Shown one piece after another: positions 7,156-60,871 of a DNA stretch of 64,000 nucleotides (positions are counted from its first letter, which is position 1; every line of letters begins with the position of its first letter). The position numbers and the translations under genes are program-made. A model generated the notes under the pieces. That model was not told where the DNA came from. It saw nothing but the letters and a program-made list of their open reading frames with translations, and did no database searches. This DNA comes from Oscillospiraceae bacterium (GTDB lineage: Bacteria; Bacillota; Clostridia; Oscillospirales; Oscillospiraceae). Where the stretch lies: assembly GCA_017458335.1 (NCBI GenBank), contig JAFTFT010000005.1:62001-126000 (forward strand), in the 5' to 3' direction.

Positions 7156-7168
7156 GGGAGGGGAGAAA

Positions 7169-7600
7169 ATGAAACAGATTCTGATCCAGCTGGTGACGGC
7201 GTTCATCGGCTCCCTCGGTTTCGGACTCCTGTTCGGCCTTCGAACGAAGCACCTGTTCTGGGCCGCTCTGGGCGGGATGATCGCATGGGGAATCTATCTC
7301 GGGGTCTATGCCCTGGTTCCGGAACTTTTCCTGGCAAACCTCTGCGCTTCCGTCTTTGCCGTGACATACGCGGAGCTGATGGCGCATCTGAGAAAATGCC
7401 CCGCGACCCTGTTTGTGGTGACCGGGGTGGTGCCGATGGTACCGGGCGGCTCCCTCTACCGCGCGATGGACTGTGCCGTAAACGGTGATCTGGCACGCGC
7501 CGGCGATTATGGCCATAAGACCCTGGTCGTCGCGCTGGCGATCGCGGCGGGAATCAGCTTTGTGACGGTATGCCGCGAACTCCATACACCGAAAACCTGA
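7169..7600 (+). CDS. Threonine/serine exporter family protein, small subunit (ThrE C-terminal type)
   Basis: 143-residue membrane protein with four to five helices and the family motif VVPMVPGGSLYRAMDCAVNG. It is homologous to the C-terminal half of full-length ThrE and should pair with the preceding gene product. GGGAGGGGAG lies just upstream of the ATG. Confidence 0.85.
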   Translation: MKQILIQLVTAFIGSLGFGLLFGLRTKHLFWAALGGMIAWGIYLGVYALVPELFLANLCASVFAVTYAELMAHLRKCPATLFVVTGVVPMVPGGSLYRAMDCAVNGDLARAGDYGHKTLVVALAIAAGISFVTVCRELHTPKT

Positions 7601-7653
7601 ATGCAAGGCTGCCCGCGAAAATAACAAATGAGACGGCGGAACCGGAAGAGTAG

Positions 7654-7662
7654 TGCTATGAT
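7654..7662 (+). promoter_or_regulatory. Extended -10 promoter of the first secreted repeat protein
   Basis: TGCTATGAT is an extended -10 element 35 bases before the gene. The position expected for -35 is poor. The same nine bases occur in the promoter at 9221-9229 ahead of the second secreted repeat protein. Confidence 0.55.
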
Positions 7663-7696
7663 GGACTCATCCAAAAGAAAACAGGAGGATATAACA

Positions 7697-27497: not shown

Positions 27498-28286
27498 GTG
27501 TTGAAAGCAGATTATAAAAACTGGGTACCGCTGGGAATGGAGCTGGGCTTCGGAGCCGCGGGCGCCGTGTTGACGGCCGGGGCGCTGGCGGCGCGGAAGC
27601 TGCCGCTGGGTCCGGGGGTCAAAAAGGGCGCCGGCTTCGTGCTGGGGCTCGGGGCGGCGGGTTGCCTCGCCTGGACCGGCTGGTGCTTTGCGGCGCGAAG
27701 AGCGTTTTCCTATGACGGGGAGCGAAAGCTCTCCAGGCAGATTGTGGAAGGGACTGCGGAATATGTGACGCTGCCGGATGGGGGCGTCGGTCTCGACGTG
27801 GGCTGCGGCAGCGGTGCGCTGACGATCGCCTGCGCGAAGAGAAATCCCCGGGCACGCATGGTGGGGGTGGACCGCTGGGGTCCGGAATATGCCTCCTTCA
27901 GCAAAGCACGCTGCGAAAAAAACGCAGAGGCAGAGGGGGTAACGAACGTCCGTTTCCAGAAGGGTGATGCCTGCCGGCTTGAGTTTGCGGATGAGAGCTT
28001 CGACGCGGTCACCAGCAACTATGTCTATCACAACATCAGCGGTGTCGATAAGCAGAAGCTCCTTCGGGAGACCCTGCGTGTCCTGAAGAAGGGCGGGACC
28101 TTCGCCATCCATGACCTGATGGAGAAAGCGCGCTATGGGGACATGGAGAAGTTTGCCGCAGAGCTCCGTGCGGAGGGCTATGAAGAGGTTCGCCTGATCC
28201 CGACGGCAAACGGCACGTTTATGTCGAAGAAGGAAGGACTGTGCTATTTTCTCGCCGGCTCAACCCTGCTGGTGGGAAAGAAATAG
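27498..28286 (+). CDS. Membrane-anchored class I SAM-dependent methyltransferase
   Basis: 262 residues. Two hydrophobic helices (about 10-32 and 44-64) anchor the N-terminus, and a Rossmann methyltransferase follows. Motif I is GLDVGCGSGALTIACAK, the acidic loop is MVGVDRW, and motif IV is FDAVTSNYVYHNI. The substrate is unknown. The start is GTG 27498, or TTG 27501 with better spacing from AAAGGAGG. The gene is intact although the prophage inserted just after its terminator. Confidence 0.8.
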   Translation: MLKADYKNWVPLGMELGFGAAGAVLTAGALAARKLPLGPGVKKGAGFVLGLGAAGCLAWTGWCFAARRAFSYDGERKLSRQIVEGTAEYVTLPDGGVGLDVGCGSGALTIACAKRNPRARMVGVDRWGPEYASFSKARCEKNAEAEGVTNVRFQKGDACRLEFADESFDAVTSNYVYHNISGVDKQKLLRETLRVLKKGGTFAIHDLMEKARYGDMEKFAAELRAEGYEEVRLIPTANGTFMSKKEGLCYFLAGSTLLVGKK

Positions 28287-47264: not shown

Positions 47265-47438
47265 TCAGCCGGGGATGTCGATGATCTTGACGATGTCTTT
47301 CGGGTCCACAGTCAGATCGCCGACCGCAATACTCTCAAGGATCTCAAAAGCTGCCTGAAAGATCGTGGTCGACTGGACGTTGAGACGGTGTTCGGTGCCG
47401 TCTTTCGTCACAAATGCAAACTGGATGTTTTCGCCCAT
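47265..47438 (-). CDS. Small phage protein between endolysin and holin (57 residues)
   Basis: Encodes MGENIQFAFVTKDGTEHRLN and ends VDPKDIVKIIDIPG. GGAG lies seven bases before the ATG at 47438. A short beta-rich protein with no recognised family. Confidence 0.6.
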   Translation of the reverse strand: MGENIQFAFVTKDGTEHRLNVQSTTIFQAAFEILESIAVGDLTVDPKDIVKIIDIPG

Positions 47439-47453
47439 GGTTTTTCTCCTTTC

Positions 47454-48290
47454 TCAGGTTTTGGTAATTTTCAGCAATGCCGCCCAGGTGAGTGGGCCGA
47501 CAATACCGTCCGGTTTCAGACCCTTTGCAGTCTGGTATGCCTTGACCCGCTCCGTCAGGAACGAGCCGAAGTTCGAGTCGATGTAGTTCACGCCGCACTC
47601 CTGCGCCTTGAGCAGGGCGCACAGCACTTCCACGTCCGGTCCCTTCATGCCCTCGCAGATGACCCTCGGTGGCCAGTATTCATGCGTCGGCATGATAGGC
47701 GGGGTCGTGGCCACGGGCGTGACGGTGGACGACGCAGACCCGCTCTCCTGGGCGGGGACGTACTCCACCAGCGCCGCCGGATCTACCACGAAGCCGGAGA
47801 ACTCCCGCAGCAGGCTCTCCGCCGCGTCTCTCCGATCCTTGTAGTTGTTCACTGCCGGCCGCTCGTAGCTCTCGCAGATGGCGTCGCAGCAGGCCGTCAG
47901 GTTGCTGGATTCCTTCAGCATCCGGAAAAGTCCAGCGTATTCCCCTTCTGTCCTGAGCTCCGTCAGCGCGAAGTGTGTCTGCATGATCTCACTGTCCAGA
48001 GCCGTGCCGTAGCGCTTCCAGAACGTCCATAGCTTATCCTTCCGATAGGGCAGCGTCCACTGGGCCAGTCCAAATCCGACTGCCCGGCAGAACTCTTCCT
48101 TGCTCATGGCACCGCTGGTTGCTCTGGCCACATAGTTCTTTGAGGTCGTCCGGAACGGGTCGAAGTCGTTCTGCAGCCGCCAGGGTTCAAGGCCGGACTC
48201 GCAGGCCCAGTTTCCCATCATGCCGATGGCGCCGGCCTCAGTCAGACCTGCGTTTCGGAGGATAGTGTAAATGGTCTGATTTCTTGTCAT
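47454..48290 (-). CDS. Phage endolysin with tail-tip-lysozyme and peptidoglycan-binding domains
   Basis: 278 residues. Residues 1-160 match phage tail-tip lysozyme (AGAIGMMGNWACESGLEPWR with catalytic Glu, VGFGLAQWTLPYRKD). A Ser/Thr/Pro linker is followed by a PG_binding_1 domain at about 210-278 (GPDVEVLCALLKAQE, GSFLTERVKAYQTAKGLKPD). It degrades host peptidoglycan at lysis. No signal peptide, so release depends on the holin. Confidence 0.87.
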   Translation of the reverse strand: MTRNQTIYTILRNAGLTEAGAIGMMGNWACESGLEPWRLQNDFDPFRTTSKNYVARATSGAMSKEEFCRAVGFGLAQWTLPYRKDKLWTFWKRYGTALDSEIMQTHFALTELRTEGEYAGLFRMLKESSNLTACCDAICESYERPAVNNYKDRRDAAESLLREFSGFVVDPAALVEYVPAQESGSASSTVTPVATTPPIMPTHEYWPPRVICEGMKGPDVEVLCALLKAQECGVNYIDSNFGSFLTERVKAYQTAKGLKPDGIVGPLTWAALLKITKT

Positions 48291-48442
48291 TCCTCATACC
48301 TCCAGTCTTCCGGATCTCCCCTCTGCCTGGCCTGCTCACGGAGATGTTCCATCTTTTCGTCTTCTTCCGCTCCGGCAACAATACATGCAAACATCATCAT
48401 TGCCAGAAGCAGCAGCAAAAGAACTGTGATCACAACTACCAT
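48287..48442 (-). CDS. Small membrane protein in the lysis cassette (51 residues)
   Basis: MVVVITVLLLLLLAMMMFAC, then a charged tail ending WRYEE. GGAGGATATC precedes the ATG at 48442, and its TGA overlaps the endolysin start (ATGA). One transmembrane helix with a cytoplasmic tail suggests a holin-like or anti-holin partner, by context only. Confidence 0.6.
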   Translation of the reverse strand: MVVVITVLLLLLLAMMMFACIVAGAEEDEKMEHLREQARQRGDPEDWRYEE

Positions 48443-48452
48443 GATATCCTCC

Positions 48453-48767
48453 TTATGTGATTACATCCCAGGTCCTGACTTCCTTCTCAATATCGTCCAC
48501 AAAACTATTTCCATTCAGGCGCTTGTACGCCTTGTATTCGAGCAGGAAGTTCTCCTTCTCATACTGACGGATCGTGTCTTCCTCCCGATGCTTGTAGTAG
48601 GTGTGCAGCATGTCAGACCGAAGTTGGCAGCGCTGTGCCTCTCTCATATCCTTCATGCCAAACAGCCATTCTCGGACGGGCTTCACGACAATAGCCATGA
48701 AAGCTATGATTCCTGTGATGTTACCAAAAATTCTTGCGATCTCTGCGATCACTTCAAGCCATTCCAT
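48453..48767 (-). CDS. Small phage membrane protein with coiled tail
   Basis: 104 residues. Hydrophobic helix at about 12-32 (IFGNITGIIAFMAIVVKPV), then a charged helical tail (TYYKHREEDTIRQYEKEN). ATG 48767 follows GGAGGTAACTGCC. First gene after the DGR terminator; possibly holin-related. Confidence 0.6.
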   Translation of the reverse strand: MEWLEVIAEIARIFGNITGIIAFMAIVVKPVREWLFGMKDMREAQRCQLRSDMLHTYYKHREEDTIRQYEKENFLLEYKAYKRLNGNSFVDDIEKEVRTWDVIT

Positions 48768-48781
48768 GGCAGTTACCTCCA

Positions 48782-48813
48782 TAAAAAATGATCCGCTCAA
48801 AAAAGCGGATCAT
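48782..48813 (-). terminator. Terminator overlapping the end of the DGR reverse transcriptase gene
   Basis: ATGATCCGCT (48788-48797) pairs with AGCGGATCAT (48804-48813). On the minus strand the hairpin spans the RT stop codon and is followed by six T. It closes the avd-TR-RT unit. Confidence 0.78.
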
Positions 48814-49927
48814 CGTCAATTTGTTCATCGTCCACGCCGAAATGATGTCGGACGAGGACGAAGTCTTCTATCGTTTTGTTCCTTAGATCGTCACAGTCAC
48901 AATGCTTCATAAGTCCGAGATAGGACTGTATCACACTCAGACAGTATTCCATTGGCAGCTCCCCGGTACTGTAGTGCTCCATTACATACCGAAGATGCCT
49001 TTTCATGTTGAGAGATGTGGATTTCCGGAGAGAAGAACGCCCTGGCCACACCATCCGCCCTATGAATTCTACGCCGGTACCGACCGGAACGACAGCGGTT
49101 TTATCATTCAGCTGCAAGCCGAAATTCTCCTGGAGATGATCGTCTATCTCCGCTATTGCCTCCCAGCACTCTGTTTTGGATGGCATGAGAATCATCATAT
49201 CGTCCATGTACCGGATGTAATACGGAACTCGCATCACGCGCTTGATGTAGTGATCGACTGGTGATAGCACAACATTGGCTGTTGTCTGCGAGATCAGGGA
49301 TCCGACCTGCATTCCCAGTCCGCATATTCGCTCACAGGTTGTAACGTCTGTGACCGCCAGAGGCAGACCGAAGGGCCGACCGTCGCACCGAATTGCCGTG
49401 TCCAGAAACCAGCGCATACGCTCGTCATCCAAGGGACGCATCAGTTCCCGCATCTGTACTTCAACCGGAATTCGGAAGAAGAACTTTGCGATATCCAGCT
49501 TTCCGATGTACCAGGTAGTCGCTTTGCCGGAGACATACTGCATCCAGCTCGTCAGAGTATCAATCGCCGCAAGCTGTCCACGGTTTGGGATGCTGCCGTA
49601 GGAATGCTCATAGAATGATCGGGAATAGATGGGCCAGAGTTGATGATAGGCAGCGCAGTTCACAACCCGGTCAAAGAACGGGAGTGCGTGGATCAGACGC
49701 AGCTTCGGAAAGTATTCATAGAACGGTCGTGGTTGCCCAGTCTCATACGTTCCCCATTGCAGATGATTTACGGCATTGATGATATTCTCTTCAAGGTTGG
49801 CAGAATAGGCCAGCACTTCCGGGCGATAACGCTTATTGCGTCTCGCCAGCAGATAACCGTCATACATGTTCTCGAAGGTTGCGAACTTCTCGAATACATG
49901 AGAGTGCTTTTCCATATTCTGCTCCAT
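48797..49927 (-). CDS. Reverse transcriptase of a diversity-generating retroelement
   Basis: 376 residues. RT motifs: IGKLDIAKFFFRIPV (motif A), GLGMQVGSLISQTTANVVLS with the DGR-specific SQ box, YYIRYMDDMMILMPSK (catalytic YMDD) and FIGRMV. There is no maturase or endonuclease domain, and the size fits DGR enzymes. Together with Avd it copies the template-repeat RNA into cDNA, misreading adenines, and the cDNA replaces VR in the target gene. ATG 49915 (GGAG six bases upstream) may be used instead of 49927. Confidence 0.95.
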   Translation of the reverse strand: MEQNMEKHSHVFEKFATFENMYDGYLLARRNKRYRPEVLAYSANLEENIINAVNHLQWGTYETGQPRPFYEYFPKLRLIHALPFFDRVVNCAAYHQLWPIYSRSFYEHSYGSIPNRGQLAAIDTLTSWMQYVSGKATTWYIGKLDIAKFFFRIPVEVQMRELMRPLDDERMRWFLDTAIRCDGRPFGLPLAVTDVTTCERICGLGMQVGSLISQTTANVVLSPVDHYIKRVMRVPYYIRYMDDMMILMPSKTECWEAIAEIDDHLQENFGLQLNDKTAVVPVGTGVEFIGRMVWPGRSSLRKSTSLNMKRHLRYVMEHYSTGELPMEYCLSVIQSYLGLMKHCDCDDLRNKTIEDFVLVRHHFGVDDEQIDDDPLF

Positions 49928-50221
49928 CCTCTATCTGTGCATAACGAACGCCGTGCCGGTTTGGACCCAGCCGGAACGTTGGCTTACTAAAGCGCCGAAG
50001 CGCACCAGCGAATATTTTTAGGCCACAGGATAACCAAGGGGACGATTCCCTTATGCCCTGTACTGTCTGCAAGCCCGTGAGCTTGCAGTATGAGACTACT
50101 TGGGCATGAGCGGAGCGGAAGCCAATGTTGCCGTTCGAGTTCGACCGAGCGTTGTTGCCGTTGGAGTTGAAGACGCCAGCGTTCGTGCCGTTGTTCCAAT
50201 TGCCACCGCAGTTGAAGCTCC
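49928..50221 (-). ncRNA. DGR template RNA (TR plus spacer up to RT)
   Basis: Contains TR (50221-50109) and a 181-base non-coding spacer reaching the RT start. The spacer has a CTGCAAGC/GCTTGCAG stem (50067-50088 on the plus strand) and a second small hairpin next to it. In the Bordetella phage BPP-1 element the RNA spans TR and the spacer up to RT. The exact ends here are not determined. Confidence 0.75.
50109..50221 (-). repeat. DGR template repeat (TR), 113 bp
   Basis: Lies 712 bases from VR with no gaps in the alignment. 99 of 113 positions are identical. All 14 differences fall on adenines of the sense (minus) strand, out of 27 adenines. Most are in AAC codons, the design that lets single A changes reach many amino acids while avoiding stops. 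Confidence 0.97.
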
Positions 50222-50241
50222 CAAACAATATGAACCATTCC

Positions 50242-50619
50242 CTATGCTGGCGGCTTTGGCTGTTTGACGGTCTTCAGCCAGCCGCCTAACATTCTTCCAA
50301 TTTCATCCACCATCGTTGACCAGTTGTCATACTTTGCCATATCGATGAAGTGCAGCCGATAGGACAGACGGATGAAAACCCGGAGCGTTGCTATTTCCAC
50401 GTCCATATTCTGGAGCGTGGTTTTCTTGTAGTAGTGCTTTCTGGCTTCAATGGCATAACGGAGGATCATATTCATGCAGTGCTTGATATCTGTTGCCATT
50501 GCGTATTTTTCTGACTTCGGAAACTGACGGAGCGCTGTATAGGCATACTCCATCATATCAAGAATCTTCTGCAGAAGCAGGAACTCCTCAGTAGGATTTA
50601 TGTTTGGTTCATCAGCCAT
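50242..50619 (-). CDS. avd: Avd, DGR accessory variability determinant
   Basis: 125 residues, a predicted four-helix bundle (FLLLQKILDMMEYAYTALRQ, MNMILRYAIEARKHYYKKTT, then VFIRLSYRLHFIDMAKYDNW). In BPP-1 Avd forms a basic barrel that binds RT and the template RNA and is required for cDNA synthesis. It ends 20 bases before TR. ATG 50619 has GGAGGG seven to eight bases upstream. Confidence 0.92.
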   Translation of the reverse strand: MADEPNINPTEEFLLLQKILDMMEYAYTALRQFPKSEKYAMATDIKHCMNMILRYAIEARKHYYKKTTLQNMDVEIATLRVFIRLSYRLHFIDMAKYDNWSTMVDEIGRMLGGWLKTVKQPKPPA

Positions 50620-50643
50620 TTTCTGTCCCTCCGAGCAAACCGT

Positions 50644-50652
50644 ATCATACCA
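50644..50652 (-). promoter_or_regulatory. Extended -10 promoter of the avd-TR-RT unit
   Basis: Minus strand TGGTATGAT, an extended -10, 25 bases before the Avd start. The -35 region is poor. Confidence 0.5.
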
Positions 50653-50720
50653 CATTCCTGAAAAAACTGTAGCTATCTTCCGGGTTCACGTTATTAAATT
50701 TCGGTATCCCGTAATTGTCC

Positions 50721-50751
50721 GAAAAAAATCGGCGGTCGGGCTTCGCCCGAC
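50721..50751 (-). terminator. Terminator after the DGR target gene
   Basis: GTCGGGC (50735-50741) pairs with GCCCGAC (50745-50751). On the minus strand a seven-T run (50728-50722) follows after six bases. It separates late-gene transcription of the target gene from avd-TR-RT. Confidence 0.72.
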
Positions 50752-50760
50752 TTAAAGAGA

Positions 50761-50782
50761 ATGCTCCGCTATCGCGGAGCAT
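50761..50782 (-). promoter_or_regulatory. DGR target-site hairpin downstream of VR
   Basis: ATGCTCCGC (50761-50769) pairs with GCGGAGCAT (50774-50782), a 9-bp stem with a four-base loop that reads GATA on the coding strand. In BPP-1 a short inverted repeat with a GRNA-type tetraloop just after VR is needed for efficient retrohoming. This one lies 38 bases past the VR end. Confidence 0.8.
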
Positions 50783-50805
50783 GGCAGCGCCCAGAGAACC
50801 AGCGA

Positions 50806-51882
50806 TCAGGGTTCATAATAAGCGGAGCGGAAGCCAATGTTGCCGTACGAGAACGACCGAGCGTAGTTGCCGCTGGAGTAGAAGACGCCAGCGCTCGCGC
50901 CGCTGCCCCAATGGCCACCGCAGTAGAAGCACCTTTCCGCTTCACCGTTGTTGAAGTAGAAATGATCTCCATCAAAGGCTGTATCTGTCTCGTCATACCG
51001 GCACATTCCGATGGATGCAAGCAGAAGCTTCGCAGCATCCGAAATTGTGTTGTCGCAGGTGATGACGTTGAACTGACAGTTATGCGCACCCTTTGCGGTG
51101 TCGGTGATCGTATTGGAGTAGACGAGCTTGTTGCTGATCCAATCCATCTTCACGGACCCGCTGGTTGTGCCGGAGCCGTCCGGAGTGATCAGCGTACCGT
51201 CTGCGGCATTGATTGCCATCCACTGCGCGGAGGATGCAGCCTGAGAGTTTGCACTGTCAGCAGCGTTGTTGTTTGCAAGAACCTGAACCTCGCCGTATAC
51301 GGTGCGAACGCCGCCTGTCCATTCCCAGACGTTGCCGTTCAGATCCCAGACTCCATCTGCAGCCCAGTTGTGGCTCCATTTCACAGGCCCGGTACCAGTT
51401 CCGACACGTCCGGTATTGGCGCCGTCTTTATGTTTCGGAATAGCGGAGTATACAGTCTCTCTGGTATCTTTGCCGTAGTTGTTATTGCCGTATGGCATGG
51501 TGCCGTTTTGCTTGCTCCACCAGGCAAGCAGCGCCCACTCGACTTTCGTCATGAGGTGCCAACCGGAACCTTTGGCGGAGCAGGCGGCAATTGCCTGGTC
51601 AAAGTTGATACTCGTTCTCGGATCCTGCGCCGGCAAAGAATAGGCACGGCCGTTCTGGACGATGTTCTGGTATTTGGAAATCCAGATATAGTCTTTCTCG
51701 ACACCGTCCACGATGAATGCGGGGAAGACCTCAGTAGAGGAGCCAAGGCCAAGCTGAGCATAGGTCATCTTCGGGATCTTCACCATGATAGACGGCTTGC
51801 CGACATCATCGTAAAGAAGCTCGTTGTTCGGGCAGATCGCCTGCAGGGCAAGGTTGGTCAGGTCAAAGTTGTTGTTCGCCAT
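50806..51882 (-). CDS. DGR target protein, FGE/C-type-lectin fold, likely tail receptor-binding protein
   Basis: 358 residues. FGE-sulfatase (C-type lectin) fold: WHLMTKVEWALLAWWSKQNG, VWDLNGNVWEWTGG, and a C-terminal core RSFSYGNIGFRSAYYEP in which VR is embedded. VR codes for the ligand-facing loops near the C-terminus; 12 codons differ from TR (7 A to T, 6 A to G, 1 A to C). The final residues and stop lie outside VR and stay constant. The position after the baseplate genes suggests it sits on the tail tip and binds host receptors. AGGAGG precedes the ATG. Confidence 0.93.
   Translation of the reverse strand: MANNNFDLTNLALQAICPNNELLYDDVGKPSIMVKIPKMTYAQLGLGSSTEVFPAFIVDGVEKDYIWISKYQNIVQNGRAYSLPAQDPRTSINFDQAIAACSAKGSGWHLMTKVEWALLAWWSKQNGTMPYGNNNYGKDTRETVYSAIPKHKDGANTGRVGTGTGPVKWSHNWAADGVWDLNGNVWEWTGGVRTVYGEVQVLANNNAADSANSQAASSAQWMAINAADGTLITPDGSGTTSGSVKMDWISNKLVYSNTITDTAKGAHNCQFNVITCDNTISDAAKLLLASIGMCRYDETDTAFDGDHFYFNNGEAERCFYCGGHWGSGASAGVFYSSGNYARSFSYGNIGFRSAYYEP
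50821..50933 (-). repeat. DGR variable repeat (VR), 113 bp
   Basis: 3' end of the target gene. Invariant GC-rich stretches (the GGCTTCCGCTCCGCT end) would act as the initiation-of-mutagenic-homology region. Changes against TR: S to C, N to Y (four times), N to H, N to G, N to S (three times), T to A, N to F. Confidence 0.97.
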
Positions 51883-51885
51883 GGT

Positions 51886-52272
51886 TTATTCCTCCTCAAG
51901 TGCCCAGAGTGAGAGCGTGACGGTGTTCATATCCAGGGGGACTGGGATTCTTTCCTCGGACTCGTTCTGCGCCGTATCAACAGGAGCGTCCTCAACAGAC
52001 GGTTCACCGCCAGTTGCAGGACCTTCTTCTTCCTGCTGCTCTTCCGAAGTCTCATAACGTCTGGCCGGGATATCGATCTCCGCCACATACCGCCGTCCCG
52101 CAGCGGCGCCGATGACAAGCTCACCGTCCCTGTCTGCACAGATATCAATATGCACGGGATCGTCTTTTTCGCGCTTTGCCAGATTGATGGTAAGATCATC
52201 GTCAAAGGTGATCTTTGTCGTTCTGACAGTGTAGGGGATTTTTTCGCCCTCGTTCTTGTTCACGATAATCAT
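51886..52272 (-). CDS. Phage tail/baseplate accessory protein
   Basis: 128 residues: MIIVNKNEGEKIPYTVRTTK, then a beta-rich half (ICADRDGELVIGAAAGRRY) and an acidic Glu-rich linker. ATG 52272 with GGAGG upstream; ends three bases before the target gene start. Possibly the connector that carries the DGR protein, by position. Confidence 0.6.
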   Translation of the reverse strand: MIIVNKNEGEKIPYTVRTTKITFDDDLTINLAKREKDDPVHIDICADRDGELVIGAAAGRRYVAEIDIPARRYETSEEQQEEEGPATGGEPSVEDAPVDTAQNESEERIPVPLDMNTVTLSLWALEEE

Positions 52273-52273
52273 A

Positions 52274-53038
52274 TTAAGCCATACCTCCAAGTACCTGATA
52301 TTTAATGGTGACGGATGACGCAGAGCCGGTGAACTCAATCTTGAATCCGTTGACCAGCTTTGCCGACACAATGATGTCCCCGACATTTCCGACTGCAGCT
52401 GTGACTTCATAATCCACGATGTAATTCTGGTTGTTCCGCTCTACACTGATCGGCACAGTTACCTGGCTGTTATTGAACGGGAAGTTCTCAGAATTGGTGA
52501 GAGTCACCGTGCCGGCAACGATATCTGTTCTCGCTGTCAGTTTGGTGATATTTCCCTCGGCGGTGGTCATCCTGCCCTGCAGCGCCGTGATGTCGCCGGA
52601 CAGGGCAGTGTCTTCGCTTTCAAGAGCCAAGATCCTATTGCCCCAATCCGCGTTCTTGTGAGCCAGCTCCGCAAACAGCATATCGACTGCAATTCGGGCA
52701 TCGTCTATGCCGTCACCAAGCGTGGCAAGGTTACTCTGCACGTCGTTCAGGTCTTTCGCCGTAAACATACGTGCGCATTTCGTGTTTGCAACCCAAGCCT
52801 GGGCAGGTCCGTCAACACCCCTGGTGATTGTGAGTCTGTCGCCGCTGACCGCCGTTACCAGAACCGTTTCAGAGGCGGACGCATCAAACCCGAGAGTGAG
52901 AAGGAAAGGCACGGTCGATGGAAGGACAGATGGATCCTTCACATAGACTGTAGTGGACGAGGCGTCGATTGCCCCGTTGGTTTCTGTCGCAGGCGAGTTC
53001 GTCTGGGCAGCGTACAATGTGAGCAGTGAGATATTAAT
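52274..53038 (-). CDS. Phage baseplate/fibre protein
   Basis: 254 residues. An N-terminal beta region (LLTLYAAQTNSPATETNGAI, TLGFDASASETVLVTAVSGD), a central coiled coil (ALESEDTALSGDITALQGRM) and a C-terminal beta-sandwich, a trimeric fibre layout. ATG, GTG or TTG with good spacing is missing. AGGAGGT is eight bases before ATT at 53038, which overlaps the stop of the upstream gene. TTG 53065 and GTG 53047 are alternatives. Confidence 0.62.
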   Translation of the reverse strand: MNISLLTLYAAQTNSPATETNGAIDASSTTVYVKDPSVLPSTVPFLLTLGFDASASETVLVTAVSGDRLTITRGVDGPAQAWVANTKCARMFTAKDLNDVQSNLATLGDGIDDARIAVDMLFAELAHKNADWGNRILALESEDTALSGDITALQGRMTTAEGNITKLTARTDIVAGTVTLTNSENFPFNNSQVTVPISVERNNQNYIVDYEVTAAVGNVGDIIVSAKLVNGFKIEFTGSASSVTIKYQVLGGMA

Positions 53039-55685
53039 ACTGTCCACCTCCTCTGGAATTTGCAAAGAGCTGAATTACAAGGTCAAGCTCAATGCGTGTA
53101 AGCGCATCGGGCGTGACTGTGACGGTGTGCCATCCCCGGTCAACAAGCCCTTCGTCATCTGCCGACAGGAATGGAATGAGGTTGATATCGTCAATGCTGG
53201 AAAAGGTTCCGACCACGTTGTCATCTACTGCGATTTCAACAGAGCTTGCACGGTCTCCTTGATAGATGCCATATTCGATATCGTGTGTATGATCCGGGAT
53301 GGAGAAATTGTGATTATGCGATTTGATGGTTACGCTGTGGGAATGTGCCTGAATGGTAACGCTGTGGCTGTGGCTCCCGATGGTTACCGAGTGCGAGTGC
53401 GAACCGATCGTAACAGAATGCGAATGATTCGGAATGGTCACTGAATGGGAGTGTGAGCCAATACTGACAGAGTGAGAGTGAGTCGCAAGGACGATACCAT
53501 GAGTATGGGATGGGATAGAATGCCTATGACTTCCGAGGTCAACATAGTGTGAATGATCCGAAGGCCAATAATACTGGTGTTGGTGTGAAGGGCTTCCGCT
53601 ATAATAGGTATATGCTGCAGAACGCCCATTACCGCTGTTACTCCAGCCGCCTGTCCATGCGTAATCAGTCACCATGGAAATTGAACTTGCGGATGTCGGA
53701 TAGCTGCTTCCGCCAGTGTTTGCGGTACTCGTGTTGACACTTCCTCCAGAGCCGGAGGTAGATGTAGCTCCACCGCCAGCCGGCGAGGTATATGTCCCAC
53801 CGCCACCGGATGCGCTGGTGACAGTAGAAGATCCACCTGCTGCCGATGTTACCGTCGCGCCGCCTCCGGACGTTGTTGTCTCTGTTGTAGAGCCACCGTC
53901 TGTCGTGGTGGACGAACTCGCGCCGCCGCCTTTGGTTGCCTTGGTATAGCCGCGGAAGGCGGTTAGCTTTCCGTGGAGAATGATCTGATTCAGATGAACG
54001 ACATTCTGCGGAATGTAAAACCGCATCTCTGCCGGGTTGTCTGCGCCGGCATTGTCCCGGAAAGACTGTGAGTACAGGGTGACAGCACCCTGAGCATAGG
54101 TTTCCTCAATTCGCTGCCGGTCACTGATATCCGCAATGCTGGATGCAGTACTTTCATCGTCACCGCCCAGAACAAACGTAGCCGCTGCAGGATTCCCGGT
54201 AACATCGTCCTTTGTGATGCACTGAATCTGAAAGTATTCGCTGATCTCTTCTTCGTCATCGATTACGCGGACGATGTCGCCAACATCACAGTTTCTGAGA
54301 CTGCCGATATGGGCGGATTCGACGGTGTAGGTTACCTTCGGCTCCTTGAGCTTTTCCAACAAAGCATTTGCTGCATCCCACAAGGACTGAGGAACCTGGT
54401 ATCGACGGTCTACCCAGATTTTGGAAATGATGCCGTATTTATCCTGGGTGTCTGAATCAATATACAGTCTCCCTGTTGGGTTGATTTTGGAAAGGTTCAG
54501 GGCGTCAACGCCTTCACCATACCCAAACGCATACAGGCGAGTGCACACATCGGTCGCATCGACAACCTTTGTGATTCCGATCATGTTTTTGGCATATCGG
54601 ATCTCGCCCTTTGCTTTGATGATTTTACGCTCTACTGTGCTCCTTTCAACGAAGTCTGTAGCAATTCCCATTTCCGGGGTAATGGAAAAGTTGTTGAAAG
54701 AATCACCGCCGCCGTGCCACCAGAAGTTTACGCTGTAGAACCAACCATCATAACGTTCCGGCCAGACGAACTGCATATCATCAAGGCTCTGGATATTCGC
54801 AGATACAACAGCATAACCGGAGCTTGAGGACGCTGTTTCATAGGCGACAATCTGAAACAGGCCTCCGGAGGAGGACAGCGCACCGCTCTTATGGAACTTG
54901 ATTCGATAAGTGCCTTGAGAAAGCGGAATATCCTCGGAACGATTCCTGATTCCGATATAAAACCATGAGCTTGATTCACCGGTGCTGCTTCCGTTCAGAG
55001 TGATTTTGCCGTCATTCTGAGTTATCGTCACACCGTTGTACACCTGCGCCGTGCCGCTGAGTTTGCTGTCATAGTACGGCGGTTCAGTATAGTTGGTTCC
55101 GACAAGAACTTCCTCAGTGTGGGTTATCGTTTCACTTTCCTGTGCTTTAAGGCTGAGAACCCAAGGCCAGTTTCTGGTGTCGAAGACCCATTGATATTTT
55201 GCGGTGAACGGCTTCGGGATAGACAGCAGAGCTGACAGAAGGTTTTCGTGCTCCCAGCCATACAGGAACTGTCTGTTAAACTCACATTCGTTCAGCACCC
55301 AGTTTTTCGTGGTCTGCTGATCAAGAACATACTGGATGACCTGATTGGTATATACACCGAGATTTCCTACTTCATGCCATCCGACCATAACGTCATCCAG
55401 CAGCGTTGCGAGGACATGTTCGCACTGGTAGGTAATCTCATGCGTATTGATGTTTTTCACCAGCTCGGAAGGAACGATCCGGAACAGGCCGATATACTCA
55501 TCTTCATCATACAGCTCTACATAGTTGAACGGCTGGCAGTATTCGTTCTTCCTGTCAGTTGCCGGCAGCGTAAAGTGTGCGGTCCAGAGTGCATTCAGCG
55601 GTTTCCGGTATCCGATTTTATAGGCGTTCTCAAGGAAGGCAAGCCGCTTTCTGCTCGTATGGCTGTAGATGGAGATATAGTTCAT
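53034..55685 (-). CDS. Tail-associated endopeptidase/Tal-like protein with Gly/Ser/Thr and His-x-His repeats
   Basis: 883 residues. The N-terminal about 550 follow siphophage Tal/prophage endopeptidase-tail proteins (SRKRLAFLENAYKIGYRKPL, FNYVELYDEDEYIGLFRIVP, VRVIDDEEEISEYFQIQCIT). Then come a low-complexity Gly/Ser/Thr stretch (about 590-675) and at least seven units of HSHSVTIGS or close variants (about 735-800), followed by HTHDIEYGIY and a C-terminal beta domain. Alternating His in trimeric fibres can coordinate metal ions. Located at the tail tip. Confidence 0.8.
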   Translation of the reverse strand: MNYISIYSHTSRKRLAFLENAYKIGYRKPLNALWTAHFTLPATDRKNEYCQPFNYVELYDEDEYIGLFRIVPSELVKNINTHEITYQCEHVLATLLDDVMVGWHEVGNLGVYTNQVIQYVLDQQTTKNWVLNECEFNRQFLYGWEHENLLSALLSIPKPFTAKYQWVFDTRNWPWVLSLKAQESETITHTEEVLVGTNYTEPPYYDSKLSGTAQVYNGVTITQNDGKITLNGSSTGESSSWFYIGIRNRSEDIPLSQGTYRIKFHKSGALSSSGGLFQIVAYETASSSSGYAVVSANIQSLDDMQFVWPERYDGWFYSVNFWWHGGGDSFNNFSITPEMGIATDFVERSTVERKIIKAKGEIRYAKNMIGITKVVDATDVCTRLYAFGYGEGVDALNLSKINPTGRLYIDSDTQDKYGIISKIWVDRRYQVPQSLWDAANALLEKLKEPKVTYTVESAHIGSLRNCDVGDIVRVIDDEEEISEYFQIQCITKDDVTGNPAAATFVLGGDDESTASSIADISDRQRIEETYAQGAVTLYSQSFRDNAGADNPAEMRFYIPQNVVHLNQIILHGKLTAFRGYTKATKGGGASSSTTTDGGSTTETTTSGGGATVTSAAGGSSTVTSASGGGGTYTSPAGGGATSTSGSGGSVNTSTANTGGSSYPTSASSISMVTDYAWTGGWSNSGNGRSAAYTYYSGSPSHQHQYYWPSDHSHYVDLGSHRHSIPSHTHGIVLATHSHSVSIGSHSHSVTIPNHSHSVTIGSHSHSVTIGSHSHSVTIQAHSHSVTIKSHNHNFSIPDHTHDIEYGIYQGDRASSVEIAVDDNVVGTFSSIDDINLIPFLSADDEGLVDRGWHTVTVTPDALTRIELDLVIQLFANSRGGGQY
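53285..53500 (-). repeat. Coding repeats for His-x-His units
   Basis: Tandem 27- to 30-base units encode HSHSVTIGS-like peptides. Codon-level variation shows they are a protein repeat, not a CRISPR array. Confidence 0.7.
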
Positions 55686-55699
55686 TCAGTCTCACCACC

Positions 55700-56242
55700 T
55701 TACAGATAGCGATCCGCCCATAGCACGGTGATTTCCAGCGCAACATTTGCCGGACTGGTGTTAACTGTGATGATATTGCCACCAGGCTTCAACTGAATAA
55801 ACACACCGCCTGATACCCACGATTCCACGTCCGGTTCGCCGTTCAGCAGAATTTCAAGCGTATCAGTATCGATGATCAGAGTATCACCCGGCTTAAACCC
55901 AACATCATTCAGACTGAGTTCTTCCGTTTCGTCCAGACGGATAGACGCAGGATCGAAGACAAACTCCGACTCAATTGTTGTCGGCTGCAGATTAACTCTC
56001 ACGAACATCCTTGCCGAAGTAGTGAAAGAACTGCTGATGCTGACGCTTTTCAGCGGGACTTTGAAGCTCATGGTGGGCAAGTCCATATCGAAGCTTGCCG
56101 TGATGGCCTGTTCCCGCATATCAATAAGGGAACTGATGCGAGGCGCATCTTCTGAGAAAATGACCTGTACATCCACGAACAGTGCCATTGTCGTGGATCC
56201 CTTATTGAAGCGCGTCTTATTAAAGAATGCTTTGCCAAACAC
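55700..56242 (-). CDS. Phage tail protein near Dit/Tal
   Basis: 180 residues. GTG start with AAAGGAGG seven bases upstream. FGKAFFNKTRFNKG is an opening I have seen in small siphophage tail proteins. A beta-rich body follows, ending in an Ig-like IDTDTLEILLNGEPDVESWV (distal-tail C-terminal style). Probably a baseplate component. Confidence 0.58.
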   Translation of the reverse strand: MFGKAFFNKTRFNKGSTTMALFVDVQVIFSEDAPRISSLIDMREQAITASFDMDLPTMSFKVPLKSVSISSSFTTSARMFVRVNLQPTTIESEFVFDPASIRLDETEELSLNDVGFKPGDTLIIDTDTLEILLNGEPDVESWVSGGVFIQLKPGGNIITVNTSPANVALEITVLWADRYL

Positions 56243-56255
56243 GGCAAACCCTCCT

Positions 56256-56651
56256 TTACGTCAGGTATACTTTCAGCTCACCTGCGGCAAAGTACGGCGT
56301 ATACCCATAGGCCAAAGCCAATGATGTTGAAAGTGCCTGATAGAACAGAAGGTTACCTCCGCTCTGAGCGTCCATAATGCCGACATATGCGGCGGTGCCG
56401 GCAGAAGCGGTGAGCTTCGGGAAAGTGACCTCTGCGTTGTTCTGGATCAGCGCACGGTCTCCGGAGATGGTGGGCGCAGAGAATGTGACAGCTGCACGAG
56501 TATAGCCGCCGCCGCTGACTTCCGTCCCGCTGTTGGCCGCTGTCGGGTTATTTGAGAAGAGCGCCACATACAGATTTGATGGAATCGTGAAGCTCTGTCT
56601 CTGAAGCCATGCGGCAAGGGTGTTGGTCCTGACATAGTTTGAAGCAGGCAT
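56256..56651 (-). CDS. Phage tail fibre-like protein (131 residues)
   Basis: SNYVRTNTLAAWLQRQSFTI and LYVALFSNNPTAANSGTEVS, GGGYTRAAVTFSAP: a pattern found in small phage tail-fibre proteins. Good ribosome site (AGGAGG). Confidence 0.65.
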   Translation of the reverse strand: MPASNYVRTNTLAAWLQRQSFTIPSNLYVALFSNNPTAANSGTEVSGGGYTRAAVTFSAPTISGDRALIQNNAEVTFPKLTASAGTAAYVGIMDAQSGGNLLFYQALSTSLALAYGYTPYFAAGELKVYLT

Positions 56652-56666
56652 TTTTTGTATTCCTCC

Positions 56667-57209
56667 TTACTGAACAGACCGTGTTACCCGAAGATTGTTG
56701 ATCGTCCGAGTTCCAACGTTCTTGATGATGATTCGGCAAGGCGTGTCCGCCGTGCCGTTTACCGGGAGAAAGATGTACCCGGAATTGCTTACGATGGTGT
56801 CTGATTCCTGCTGAATCTCTGTATATGCAAACGGCGGCGAATAGCAGAAGGTAACATCAAACTCCCCATATTGCAGATGCCGTATCTGCGGAGGGGCGCC
56901 CACAACAAAAGCGTCATAGTATTTACCAGGCTCGTTGTCGAATTCAAGCCGACCTTCTCCGGACAGCCAGAGGGCAATTCGACGAGCGGAATCAGCCAGA
57001 GAGATGTTTTCGGGCCTGACATAATAACAGTGGAAGGTTTCTTCTCTGGCAAGGTAGGTGCCGTCTGATTGTGAATGGTATCCTGAACGGCCCGGAATCT
57101 CTATCATCACTCTTCTTTTCTCCGGAAGAATGATGCGCTGTGTTGGGTTGACTACAATCCCGTAAGACTGCGAGTGGCCGCTGTTAAATGTGAATCCTGT
57201 CGTTATCAT
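56667..57209 (-). CDS. Distal tail protein (Dit)
   Basis: 180 residues: GIVVNPTQRIILPEKRRVMI, EIPGRSGYHSQSDGTYLARE and the C-terminal Ig-like GYIFLPVNGTADTPCRI, typical for Dit. It forms the hub joining tail tube and Tal. Overlaps the tape measure end by four bases. Confidence 0.8.
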   Translation of the reverse strand: MITTGFTFNSGHSQSYGIVVNPTQRIILPEKRRVMIEIPGRSGYHSQSDGTYLAREETFHCYYVRPENISLADSARRIALWLSGEGRLEFDNEPGKYYDAFVVGAPPQIRHLQYGEFDVTFCYSPPFAYTEIQQESDTIVSNSGYIFLPVNGTADTPCRIIIKNVGTRTINNLRVTRSVQ

Positions 57210-60200
57210 TTGTTGCCCCTTCCCCTGAGCTCGAGCTTGATCTCCGCTGCCAGTTGCCTGGATATCTTCCGAATATCTGCTTCTTCCCGTACAACCATGC
57301 TCCCGATGTGGATGTCAATGTTGGTGTCTCCGCTGTCGGAACTACCGGTTGCCGCTGATCGGAGAGCCGGATACAAAACATCTCGCATGTCCGGAGCGCT
57401 GGCTTTAATGAGCCGTGCGGCTTTTTCCAGACCAGAGGTATCGAACCTAAGGGCATTGTCAACAACCTTCTCTGTGGCCGTTGCAACGCGCTCCTTTTTG
57501 CTCTCAATGCCGACCGCCATGCCTTCGCCGACATACTCGAAGATTTCCTTTGTCTTCCGGGAAGGTGAGCTGACGGCTGCAGCTGCCCTGGCGGCGCTGA
57601 TTGCATTTGCAGTGACGCTATAGACAGCCTGATATAGATATCCGCTTTGGCTGTAGATGCCGTTGATCATACCGCCGACAATATTTGAGCCGATAGCGAA
57701 CATCTGCTCATACATACCGTAAGTGCCCATGGAGAGTGTGCTTTTGAGTTCCTGCAATTCTGACTGCGTCCGGCTCTGCAGATCTCTCAAGCCTCTGGCG
57801 TAGTATTCGGCAGACTCAAGGCCGGCCTGGAACATGGTATTCTTGATTTCTGCGGAAAGGGTTTTCACAGAACTGATTACAATGCTCTCTCCGTTTTTAA
57901 TTCCTTCCGCAAGTCCCTGATCAAGATTGGTGCCGATTTCGCGCCATACAGTGGACGGCGAATGTACGCCGGCTTCTGTCTGTGCGGCTTCGGTTGTGCT
58001 GCTCACCAGATCCTTTGCAGCGCCTTCTACTTCTGAGGTAGAGCCTGTGATACCAGTAGAAAGCCCTGTACCCATATTACCGCCGATTTCTTCAAAGTTC
58101 AGACCGACATCAGCAAACGCTGTATCGACTGCTTCATAGAAACCATCAAAATTGACCGCAGCTGCCTGTTCCTCCATCTGTGCGATGGCTTCGGCGACAC
58201 TGGTGTTGATTGCCGCCATGGTTTCAGCGAGGTTTGTTTTTGCGTCCTCGGTGCTTTTGAATGCTGCGTTGAATTTTTCAACAGCTTCCTCAGATGTCGC
58301 TGCAAAACCGGAAACACCGTTCCCTGCATTTTCTATTTCTCCGATAATGGTTGCCAGATACCCTGCTGACTCTGTGGAGCCATCTGCAAGAGACTGGACA
58401 AGTCCGGTGTCAAGACCATACTCAGCAGCTTTTTTCAGATTCTCCGTGTAGGCGCCGAGGTTGGCTGTCTGCTGAGCCCACAGATCCAGCATTTCCTGTG
58501 CAGTGTCCGTATCTTCTGAAATCTCAGCGGCATAAGCATCGAATAGACTGATCTGTCCTTCAAGCGAACTTTTGGCTTCATCATAGGCATCTTTGTATGC
58601 CTGCGCCATTTCGCCGAGAGACATCGTAATCTCCTCTGCAACGTAGTTAGCCGCTTCGTTTGCAGCGGTCATATCTCCTGTGGCCTCTGCCGATTCTTCC
58701 GTTGCCTGCTTTGCCGCTTCCTGGGCAGCGGTGTACTCCTCGGTGGCATGAGTCAGCCCGAGCGTTGCCATGTCCAGGGCATCCTGTGCCATGGTAAGAT
58801 CTCCGCCATACATTGCGAGATTGTCATACTCTTCCTGTAGGCGGACGATTTCCGCTTTGTATGCCTCCACATTGGCCGCATATTCCTCAAGAGTGTGGCC
58901 TTCTCCGAGAAAACCGATTTTCTCAGTTTCTTTGAAATGATCGATTACGGTAGCAACGCTGAGAAGCGCGACAGCAACAGCTGGGGCCGCGGATGCTACA
59001 CCGCCCAGAGCGGTGGTAAAGGTTCCCAGCGCACTGGACGCGCCGTTAACAATCCCGGACAGCATGGATGCGGTCTTGGTGAACCCAAGCAGGCTTGCCA
59101 CTTTTGATGCGGACTGCAGGCCAACAAAAGCAGATGTCACTCCAACGATGGCACCGGCCGTCTTTACAAGAACCGAAGTCAGTTTCGGGTTTTCTTCGGT
59201 AAGCTTTGTGAAGAACTCAACTGCTGTCTGACCTTTTTCGGCAAGGTCAATGATCGTGGGGGCGAGTGCGTCACCGATGGCAATTTTAAGATTGTTGGTA
59301 GCATTCTCAAATTGAGTGACTTTCGCCTGAGCGGTATCGTACATGATACCGGCTTTTTCTTGCAGAGCTGTGTTTTCTTCCCATGCCTGATTTGCCTGCT
59401 CAATGGTTCCGGTCAGAAGATCACCAGCAGCCGCGAGACCGAGGATTGCTTTTGTCTGACGGACATTGGTAATGCCCAATTCATCCAGAATGAGGATAGC
59501 GGACTGTCCGTTCCGTTCGGTGTCATTCAGTCCAGTGATGAAAGCATTCAGCGCACCGACTGCATCTTCTCCCCAAGCCTGACGGAATTGCGATCCGCTC
59601 ATACCGGCGACACTGGCAAACTGATCCAGCTTCTCACCGCCTGTCTGAGTGGCCTTGTATAGCGTGGAGATCAGCGTCGACATTGCTGTGGATCCGGCAG
59701 CGCTTTCAATGCCAAGGGAACCGACTGCGGCGGAGATGGCCATAATATCTGTCGCGCTCATGCCGGCAAGCGTACCAGTTGCCGCTATGCCCTGGGACAT
59801 CTCGACAACCTTTGTTGCGGTGGTAGCAGTCGCGTCGCCGAGTGACGCAACGACAGATCCGAGATGTTCATAATCGCTTGCGGTTTTCATGCCGGTGATA
59901 TTGGCAAATTGCGCAAGCATTGTCGCTGCTGTATCTGCAGTCAGATCGGTTGTCGTGGCCAGCTGAGCCATGACCTCTGTGAATGCCTCAACATTATCAC
60001 GGCCTTTTACGCCGAGCTGCCCGGCTGTCGTGGCGATCGCAGTTAACTCCTGCGTAGTGATCGGGATCTCCGTAGAGAGCTGTTTGAAATGATTTCCCAT
60101 TTCCTCCAGTTCCGGCCCGGTGATTCCGGTAGTGCGTTTGACAGCCGCCATCCCGACTTCAAATTCCATGGAAGCCCTGGCACAGTCCATAAGAGCGTCG

Positions 60201-60871
60201 CGCAGCTTATCTGCTACCTGCTGGAATTCTGCAGACGCAAGGACTGTACTGAGGTCTTGGACAGACTCTTTTGTCTCGTCCACTTCACGGCCGAACTCAT
60301 CAATGGAATGGGCGCAGCCGTCAGAGGATTTTGCCGCTTCGTCCAGATACTTGTCGTTCTTCTGAATCTCCGCATCCAGATTATTCAGCTGGATTTCTGC
60401 ATTGTTGAGCTGTGTCTGCCAGTTGTTGGTTCCCTTTTCGGCAGCGGCTAACTTGGCGTCCACGCCCTGGAGTTCTTTCTGAAGCTTCGCGTTTTCCTCA
60501 GTGAGACGGGCTTCTTCCTTCGACGTGTCGCCGGTGGTCTGTTTCAGCTTTTCCAGCGCCTTGTTGTTCTCTTCAATCTTCTTTTGAAGCTCGGCCTTCT
60601 GCTGGGCATATTTCTGCTCAGCCTGTTTCGCATTATCCAGGGCGCTTCTGAGTTCCTGAACCTTGTTCTTCTGAGCCTGATACAGATCGCTCAGTGCTTT
60701 TCCCTTGGCCTGCAAGGCCTGCATGGAATTCGCATTTGTCTGATACTGACTCTCTGTGAGCTTCAGCTGAGATGCAAGAGATTTGAGTTCAGAATTGATT
60801 TTTGACAGTGAGGCGCGATATTCGGACTCACCGGTTATTGCGAGTTTCGTTGATATGGTCCGAGTGGCCAT
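57206..60871 (-). CDS. Tail tape measure protein
   Basis: 1221 residues. The N-terminal coiled coils (SKINSELKSLASQLKLTESQ, AKQAEQKYAQQKAELQKKIE) span about 20-180. A TP901-type region (FKQLSTEIPITTQELTAIAT, VEAFTEVMAQLATTTDLTAD) lies at about 240-540, with hydrophobic helices at 560-660 and more helical segments to the end (VHSPSTVWREIGTNLDQGLA, AAVSSPSRKTKEIFEYVGEG). Its length sets tail length; by the usual 1.5 angstrom per residue this means roughly 180 nm. Confidence 0.93.
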   Translation of the reverse strand: MATRTISTKLAITGESEYRASLSKINSELKSLASQLKLTESQYQTNANSMQALQAKGKALSDLYQAQKNKVQELRSALDNAKQAEQKYAQQKAELQKKIEENNKALEKLKQTTGDTSKEEARLTEENAKLQKELQGVDAKLAAAEKGTNNWQTQLNNAEIQLNNLDAEIQKNDKYLDEAAKSSDGCAHSIDEFGREVDETKESVQDLSTVLASAEFQQVADKLRDALMDCARASMEFEVGMAAVKRTTGITGPELEEMGNHFKQLSTEIPITTQELTAIATTAGQLGVKGRDNVEAFTEVMAQLATTTDLTADTAATMLAQFANITGMKTASDYEHLGSVVASLGDATATTATKVVEMSQGIAATGTLAGMSATDIMAISAAVGSLGIESAAGSTAMSTLISTLYKATQTGGEKLDQFASVAGMSGSQFRQAWGEDAVGALNAFITGLNDTERNGQSAILILDELGITNVRQTKAILGLAAAGDLLTGTIEQANQAWEENTALQEKAGIMYDTAQAKVTQFENATNNLKIAIGDALAPTIIDLAEKGQTAVEFFTKLTEENPKLTSVLVKTAGAIVGVTSAFVGLQSASKVASLLGFTKTASMLSGIVNGASSALGTFTTALGGVASAAPAVAVALLSVATVIDHFKETEKIGFLGEGHTLEEYAANVEAYKAEIVRLQEEYDNLAMYGGDLTMAQDALDMATLGLTHATEEYTAAQEAAKQATEESAEATGDMTAANEAANYVAEEITMSLGEMAQAYKDAYDEAKSSLEGQISLFDAYAAEISEDTDTAQEMLDLWAQQTANLGAYTENLKKAAEYGLDTGLVQSLADGSTESAGYLATIIGEIENAGNGVSGFAATSEEAVEKFNAAFKSTEDAKTNLAETMAAINTSVAEAIAQMEEQAAAVNFDGFYEAVDTAFADVGLNFEEIGGNMGTGLSTGITGSTSEVEGAAKDLVSSTTEAAQTEAGVHSPSTVWREIGTNLDQGLAEGIKNGESIVISSVKTLSAEIKNTMFQAGLESAEYYARGLRDLQSRTQSELQELKSTLSMGTYGMYEQMFAIGSNIVGGMINGIYSQSGYLYQAVYSVTANAISAARAAAAVSSPSRKTKEIFEYVGEGMAVGIESKKERVATATEKVVDNALRFDTSGLEKAARLIKASAPDMRDVLYPALRSAATGSSDSGDTNIDIHIGSMVVREEADIRKISRQLAAEIKLELRGRGNK

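Follow-up and report, generated by a model that had tools for sequence, protein, structure and literature searches.

A spaced CTG array beside the variable repeat of a diversity-generating retroelement in a predicted Oscillospiraceae prophage

The stretch analysed here, which we call the window, comprises 64,000 nucleotides from an Oscillospiraceae bacterium (GenBank assembly GCA_017458335.1, contig JAFTFT010000005.1, positions 62,001 to 126,000 of the forward strand) and contains a diversity-generating retroelement (DGR). We consider it very probable that this is a DGR of the phage type that has Avd, carried by a siphovirus-like prophage, and that its recipient copy, the variable repeat (VR), is marked by the VR end, an array of spaced CTG units and a hairpin. 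Judging from its parts, the element is a complete, canonical DGR in the order of Bordetella phage BPP-1, that is, target gene, hairpin, avd, template repeat (TR) and reverse transcriptase (RT) gene. The original prediction of such a complete cassette within a prophage, with a lectin-type target (here of the FGE subtype), is supported by gene, profile and structure matches. The reading frames of the target, avd and RT are all open and all lie on the minus strand.

The cassette itself is an ordinary DGR of a known kind; the part that merits attention is the array. How the mutagenised complementary DNA (cDNA) finds the VR and spares the TR is called undefined or incompletely understood in the available portions of PMC8144416 and PMC12875486. 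A short motif of spaced units that stands at recipients and not at templates, and by which DGR targets can be found from DNA alone, would be a concrete and testable element; it may help to locate orphan target genes, and it may turn the initiation of mutagenic homing (IMH) sequence of BPP-1 from a one-off sequence into a case of a general rule. The array is apparently undescribed, although an earlier description may exist: it is mentioned nowhere in the available portions of PMC3240598, PMC12875486, PMC10743442, PMC7290462, PMC6642488, PMC11792537, PMC3521204, PMC8144416, PMC4372165, PMC6199706 and PMC5006420, and CTG as a term occurs 0 times in the DGR literature searched, in so far as its text was available.

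A spaced CTG array at the recipient repeat

The interval of 38 nt between the VR (50821-50933) and the hairpin (50761-50782) holds CTG-N4-CTG-N5-CTG-N4-CTG, a pattern that the original prediction had overlooked. The array (50785-50809, minus strand; units at 50807-50809, 50800-50802, 50792-50794 and 50785-50787, with gaps of 4, 5 and 4) overlaps the stop codon of the target gene and stands where the homology between TR and VR ends, on the VR side only and beside a GRNA-type hairpin. When the 38-nt interval was shuffled 200,000 times, 7 shuffles did as well as its four CTG units at 7/8-nt steps. The adjacent hairpin or cruciform, also on the minus strand, has a 9-bp stem and a GATA loop (DNA fold z = -3.5). 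The loop fits the published GRNA consensus, and the whole has the BPP-1-type form, for which a GC-rich stem of 7-10 bp and a 4-nt GRNA loop downstream of the VR are described in the part of PMC3240598 available to us.

In the aligned flanks of relatives the CTGs are kept, while the letters between them and the hairpin stem vary. We compared 25 DGRs of the window's own RT cluster (RT identity of at least 50%, chosen regardless of the array and including the window; L006, one of 26 loci, was excluded because its VR end was misplaced). Their identity to the window amounts to 0.96 over the 12 letters of the units, against 0.22 over the 13 letters of the spacers. Our wider set has 109 representatives, namely 99 clusters and ten named phages, in which L208 repeats the flank of L051 and from which L223 (a near-copy of L219) and L220 (no repeat pair) were left out. 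Chains of at least three CTGs at 7/8-nt steps follow the VR in 60 of these 109, where 0.06 are expected from plain shuffles and 0.40 from dinucleotide shuffles, versus 0 of 109 after the TR; the TR 3′ flank of the window likewise has no array. Chains of at least four follow the VR in 50 representatives (expected 0.00), and further downstream, from VR+55 to VR+113, CTG chains occur in 3. Four loci with misplaced VR ends (L006, L040, L058 and L112) were kept as negatives in these counts and dropped from the chance-triplet estimate given below. GRNA hairpins with a stem of at least 6 bp were found in 57 of the 109, with 47 distinct stems.

By step, chains of three in VR flanks number 60 at 7/8 nt, 25 at 6/7, 8 at 8/9 and 0-4 at the other pairs of steps tried. 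Most of 61 distinct four-unit arrays have gaps of 4-5-4 (23) or 4-4-5 (16). In 44 of 57 cases the array contains the stop codon of the target, at varying offsets, which points to a constraint on DNA or RNA and not on protein.

One could regard the array as inherited ballast or as a by-product of gene ends (stop region, terminator or ribosome site) that carries no DGR signal; many of the sequences are homologous, and the adjacent hairpin scores terminator-like. We find this very unlikely, given that the unit letters are kept while the intervening spacers differ, that the array is absent at the TR, and that, of 108 distinct four-unit arrays in loci totalling 5.79 million strand-bases, 88 are situated in the flank of a detected VR. 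About half of the remaining 20 follow VR-like ends, as read by eye.

Also at odds with ballast is the recovery of DGR targets by a search with DNA alone. The pattern of four CTGs plus the hairpin core CGATAG, searched in IMG/VR, returned at least 120 stretches, and the 120 listed were all examined. Among these, 29 had been met before (23 with a TR pair, 5 without and 1 at an edge) and 91 were new: for 45 of these the fetched locus contains an adenine-biased TR/VR pair, for 43 it has no TR, and 3 lie at edges. The 43 new stretches without TR were judged by eye from their translations, and 24 of them end like DGR targets, with GFRxAF-type ends, five of these weakly (L396, L406, L461, L466 and L502). 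Some rows of this search repeat each other (L392/L473/L504, L478/L484 and L432/L494).

Arrays in other reverse transcriptase groups

Spaced units with other letters were found in two further groups. In the proteobacterial Avd RTs (A3), YTG chains of at least three follow the VR in 44 of 58 flanks (expected 2.00) versus 1 of 58 TR flanks, in a set that is not purely proteobacterial, at least 11 of its 58 rows repeating contigs or phages of our first set (L225, L240, L241, L277, L278, L283, L291, L292, L294, L297 and L298). The Haboob type (A4) has TTY chains in 60 of 101 VR flanks (expected 7.85) versus 0 of 101 on the TR side; a CTG chain was seen in no flank. Expected counts came from plain shuffles in the initial scans and from dinucleotide shuffles in the repeat scan. 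Pairs were admitted when at least 75% (first set) or at least 80% (A3 and A4) of their differences fell at TR adenines, the array being no criterion; the adenine bias of those sets is therefore there by construction.

A YTG chain of three is present in 11 of 28 RT clusters. When a locus has at least two distinct VRs (40 loci), a chain of three, YTG or TTY, follows at least one of them in 35, and the flanks of two VRs within one locus have a mean identity of 32%. In BPP-1, the annotated end of VR1 reads TGA-N5-TGA-N4-TGA (steps of 8 and 7), with no TGA in the TR there. Four of the five IMH/IMH* mismatches fall on TGA letters, and the third TGA is broken in the TR by the next mismatch beyond. 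It is these IMH/IMH* mismatches that set the direction of transfer in BPP-1, according to the available part of PMC3240598.

Adenine-directed differences and homing

The TR (50109-50221, minus strand) matches the VR, which lies on the same strand at the C-terminal end of the target gene, over 113 bp without gaps. The two differ at 14 positions, all 14 of them TR adenines (7 A to T, 6 A to G and 1 A to C), adenines being 27 of the 113 TR bases; at the 86 non-A positions there are 0 differences. The hypergeometric probability of such a placement is 7.3e-11, so that the dismissal of chance in the original prediction holds, and its coordinates, gapless alignment and adenine-only differences proved exact to the base. 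Its 12 changed codons were also borne out (318, 320, 324, 326, 327, 329, 330, 335, 337, 340, 344 and 346), with no silent change among them. A repeat finder matched the two over 116 bp (50106-50221 / 50818-50933), which adds a single non-A mismatch near the end and indicates that the TR/VR homology ends there. The VR ends in ...GGCTTCCGCTCCGCT, which is GC-rich but not GC-only, and the VR ends of relatives are alike. A 131-base TR query of the genome bin returned 1 TR and 1 VR as its sole matches; since this metagenome assembly is 83.7% complete, further copies could be missing.

We found no point in favour of an ordinary duplication that diverged by selection or gene conversion and is not a DGR at all, and with 14 of 14 changes on adenines, a DGR-type RT and Avd beside the repeats, and the same adenine bias over 43 pooled TR/VR pairs, the idea is hardly credible. 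In those 43 pairs, 516 differences fall at TR adenines versus 25 elsewhere, A making up 1010 of 4814 TR bases. They were hand-picked from the listing, leaving out duplicates and complicated loci such as L009, L040, L064, L075, L078, L079, L081-L084, L090, L094 and L098.

The adenine pattern implies that this copy underwent mutagenic homing in the past. The element had been called demonstrably active, and the part of that claim that stands is past adenine-directed homing; present activity does not follow, as a single consensus sequence can show past homing only. It could even be a decayed remnant, intact by chance and no longer homing, as this copy is known from one consensus sequence, with a single VR found in the genome bin. 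However, the three open frames, the 0 non-A differences in 113 bp and the intact hairpin and array make such decay improbable.

A close second copy for comparison was not found among the genomes of 59 relatives and 391 genomes of the class. The RT search of the former together with the own genome (60 in all) gave a match in 10, the best besides the own being 37% identical; in the latter, 103 had some match, many of them plainly other RTs, and the best was 71% identical. A search of viral contigs for this TR/VR as an exact pattern, its adenines masked, gave nothing, and megablast of 47400-56300 gave no match in the phage collection. A search of IMG/VR gave 62 target relatives and 14 RT relatives (RT identity up to 84%), and six relatives are in named genomes.

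Among relatives, L070 and L071, whose RT is 74% identical to that of the window, share 6312 of 6319 bp (99.889%); the 7 mismatches all lie in the VR at TR adenines, and the TRs are identical. Variation confined to VR adenines is what an active DGR leaves, and for this relative the sequences appear to show it in nature. L073 and L074 have 11 VR differences, 10 of them at TR adenines, with identical TRs. Where the TRs of relatives differ at positions that are A in neither, the VR mirrors the difference in 2 of 2 cases (L017/L020), 2 of 2 (L049/L052) and 2 of 3 (L025/L026), as predicted by copying from TR to VR. In L007 and L011 every difference between the TRs involves an A in one of the two, and there is no mirroring in the VR. 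Within ten bases of the TR (L007 3049-3158; L011 4765-4874), one of these two phages, which are 96% identical, has C or T in place of five adenines; adenines seem to have been lost from the TR itself, and self-homing or conversion from VR to TR may be the cause.

Extra repeat copies occur in 9 rows of the fetched loci, of which 4 are extra TR-like copies (L040 and L155) and 5 are further VR candidates. L040, on the same contig as L155, has at 6836-7686 a 304-bp unit with TR-like sequence that is present almost three times in tandem, beside one VR, and by its repeats it is a DGR with multiple templates.

Proposed mechanism and role of the array

The RNA, priming and homing steps are inferred here from the BPP-1 literature and in part from PMC12875486. 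The TR would be transcribed, and the RT with Avd would copy the TR RNA, primed in a structured spacer 3′ of the TR, with misincorporation at its adenines. The cDNA would then replace the VR in the target gene and give a varied C-terminal face of the lectin-type tail protein.

The spacer RNA (50034-50108, minus strand) is a predicted fold with compensatory pairs from an alignment of 24 sequences of the window's RT cluster, from which L006 and L016 were dropped. One pair is U-A in 12 and C-G in 12; such a conserved fold with compensatory changes is as expected for a priming structure. Most relatives have the loop motifs G[UC]CAGAU and CAGU[AG]CAG, and the window has GUCUCAU at the first. Pairing of the CAG motifs with the CTG array was also considered, as both are enriched; their spacing differs, CAG persists in the spacers of groups with non-CTG arrays and the window spacer has no CAGAU motif, and we do not claim it. 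Rfam gave no match for the spacer RNA or the window.

The recipient mark would be a three-part site in which the 3′ end of the VR is followed by four spaced CTG units and then by the GRNA-loop hairpin. We lean slightly towards the array as the place where the complex of RT, Avd and cDNA docks, which would restrict transfer to the direction from TR to VR, as the IMH does in BPP-1. It might be read in register by an oligomeric component, for which Avd is the first candidate; Avd is a pentamer in BPP-1. A wider form of this reading is a serious possibility on which we would not yet bet. DGR recipients in general may carry 3-5 short units at 7-8 nt at the 3′ edge of the VR as a recipient mark, read in register by a multi-subunit protein (for example the pentamer of Avd, each subunit spanning about 7.5 nt) that directs the mutagenised cDNA to the VR and keeps it off the TR. 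The units would be CTG in phages of Bacillota such as this one, YTG in those of proteobacteria, TTY in those of the Pseudomonas type and TGA in BPP-1, where they coincide with the direction-setting letters of the IMH.

The array might instead do another job, for example as a start site of the host lagging-strand primase that leaves single-stranded DNA or primers at the VR for annealing of the cDNA. E. coli DnaG prefers the trinucleotide CTG, and a CTG unit with an adjacent hairpin resembles single-strand initiation sites. Against this quite improbable alternative stand the TTG or TTC units at the same pitch in other groups and the presence of four units in register, where a primase needs one. 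PMC12875486 discusses how the cDNA gains access to the lagging strand, yet changes in DnaG level or recruitment left DGR editing in E. coli unaltered in the same article, as far as its text is available.

Several observations weigh against the overall reading, an active DGR with a recipient mark of this kind. No strict CTG chain of three was found in 49 of the 109 representatives (four of these from a misplaced VR end), and 17 of the 28 RT clusters have no YTG chain of three, including Arawn (L211), Brigit (L221) and several from class genomes. In the multi-VR loci, a chain of three follows every VR in just 14 of 40. The TTY units of the Haboob group also recur every 4 nt, which is partly explained by composition. 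In the DNA-only search, a TR is absent from the fetched locus for 43 of the 88 new evaluable matches among the 120 listed, and 19 of those 43 look unrelated to DGRs; in the own genome, a looser array pattern has 7 matches, one of them at the VR, versus 3 in a reversed control. The TGA pattern of BPP-1 is one sequence, and since any-triplet chains of three arise by chance in about 4% of such stretches, we take the three TGAs as a lead to a possible counterpart of the CTG array. Current activity of this copy is unseen, there being one consensus sequence and no second isolate. Finally, conservation of the array would not by itself show function, and its binding partner is a candidate only.

The target protein and the accessory genes

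The target (variable protein) gene (50806-51882, minus strand) encodes 358 aa of the FGE-type C-type-lectin family, with the VR at the C terminus. Its profile matches are Pfam FGE-sulfatase (2.8e-8), phrog_2889 (3e-123) and phrog_5302, a tail protein (2.6e-14), and by sequence its closest solved chain is 5vf4 (1.8e-46). An AlphaFold model from an alignment of 33 relatives has a mean predicted local distance difference test (pLDDT) of 93.5 and matches 5vf4 over its whole length (template modelling (TM) score 0.88-0.89, E ~1e-38, 30% sequence identity); TvpA (2y3c, E 3e-5) and the Mtd chains (E 1e-3) match less well. The chain 5vf4 is TaqVP, which PMC6328139, in its available part, describes as a DGR variable protein whose C-type-lectin fold is of the FGE subtype; in proteins of this sort the variable residues are exposed where the ligand binds. 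On the model, the target is predicted to have the TaqVP-type lectin fold, and the sequence matches to 5vf4 and FGE and the model match to TaqVP place the VR at the 3′ end of a lectin-scaffold gene, as in DGRs. That the target is the tail-tip receptor-binding protein and that the phage can retarget itself are sensible inferences from homology and from gene order, in which Dit, a Tal-like endopeptidase and two further genes precede the target.

CalU17 is a weak fold match of the target model. In L210 the target (1108-2187) is annotated as a calicheamicin CalU17 protein, and open reading frames over the TR region (L210 2713-2928; L208 2770-2901) include one called an enediyne biosynthesis protein; both cases look like misannotated DGR parts.

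The accessory variability determinant avd (50242-50655, minus strand) matches bAvd (PF22296, 1.5e-29) and phrog_3206 Avd (1e-36), and the nearest solved chain to its product is 4dwl, Bbp7, the Avd of BPP-1 (0.0018). The DGR reverse transcriptase (48797-49927, minus strand; 376 aa) has a YMDD active site and matches RVT_1 (1.2e-19) and phrog_1423 (8.8e-105); its best solved relative is 8ub7 (1.5e-28), which we take to be the BPP-1 RT. A second stem-loop with a GAA loop, followed by a T-rich stretch (50735-50751, minus strand), folds weakly (z = -1.9) and is possibly a terminator. In the relatives L015, L046, L073, L076 and L099, a palindrome like AAATAACG-N5-CGTTATTT lies upstream of avd, about 70-120 nt after the VR, and could be an operator of the avd-TR-RT unit.

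Comparison with known systems

The element shares with the BPP-1 DGR (mtd, avd, TR and brt) the gene order, Avd, the RT family, an FGE-type lectin target and a GRNA hairpin after the VR (PMC3240598, available part). It differs in its VR-hairpin interval of 38 nt (4 to 34 in the published set), in having four CTG units instead of a short IMH, and in a VR end without the GC-only 14-bp IMH tract of BPP-1. Bacillus phage BalMu-1, Faecalibacterium phage FP_Lagaffe and Dulem virus 37 have the same order of target, avd, TR and RT with lysis genes downstream, and CTG arrays of three or four units after the VR as in the window, although their RTs are just 36-39% identical to that of the window; unlike the window, FP_Lagaffe has a stem-loop without a GRNA loop. 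Uncultured Clostridiales RUG467 (ONNS01000001.1) / IMGVR_UViG_2799112583_000005 shares the layout of array and hairpin (RT 81%, target 72-73%) and differs in VR content. TaqVP of Thermus aquaticus has the same fold over the whole target length at the sequence identity given above.

Two records among the phages compared, OK094664.1 (Shewanella phage) and OP650936.1 ('Hujiaoplasma phage'), have the same record length and identical RT match statistics, and one host label may be wrong. The DGR of OK094664.1 is close to that of Burkholderia phage Magia.

Prophage setting

The window is part of a contig of 332 kb; the metagenome-assembled genome to which this contig belongs has 44 contigs and totals 2.95 Mb. 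Around the cassette are genes for an integrase, a regulator, Dit, a Tal-like endopeptidase, a tape measure, a holin and an endolysin, and in the next 20 kb we read frames from their translations as portal, terminase and head protease. These phage genes indicate a prophage. The endolysin (47454-48290), identified by profile matches, adjoins the cassette; the Tal-like prophage tail endopeptidase (53034-55685; PF06605, 8.5e-24) is upstream of the target; the tape-measure protein is at 57206-60871; and a recombinase/integrase (28260-29825; phrog_95 integrase 8.3e-117, phrog_125 DNA invertase 1e-27) lies in the left part of the prophage, all four on the minus strand. A tRNA search of the window found none. 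The own genome has a second, distant RT gene (G000:C29:54746-55465, E 4.9e-8) in a 491-aa frame, which is probably not of a DGR.

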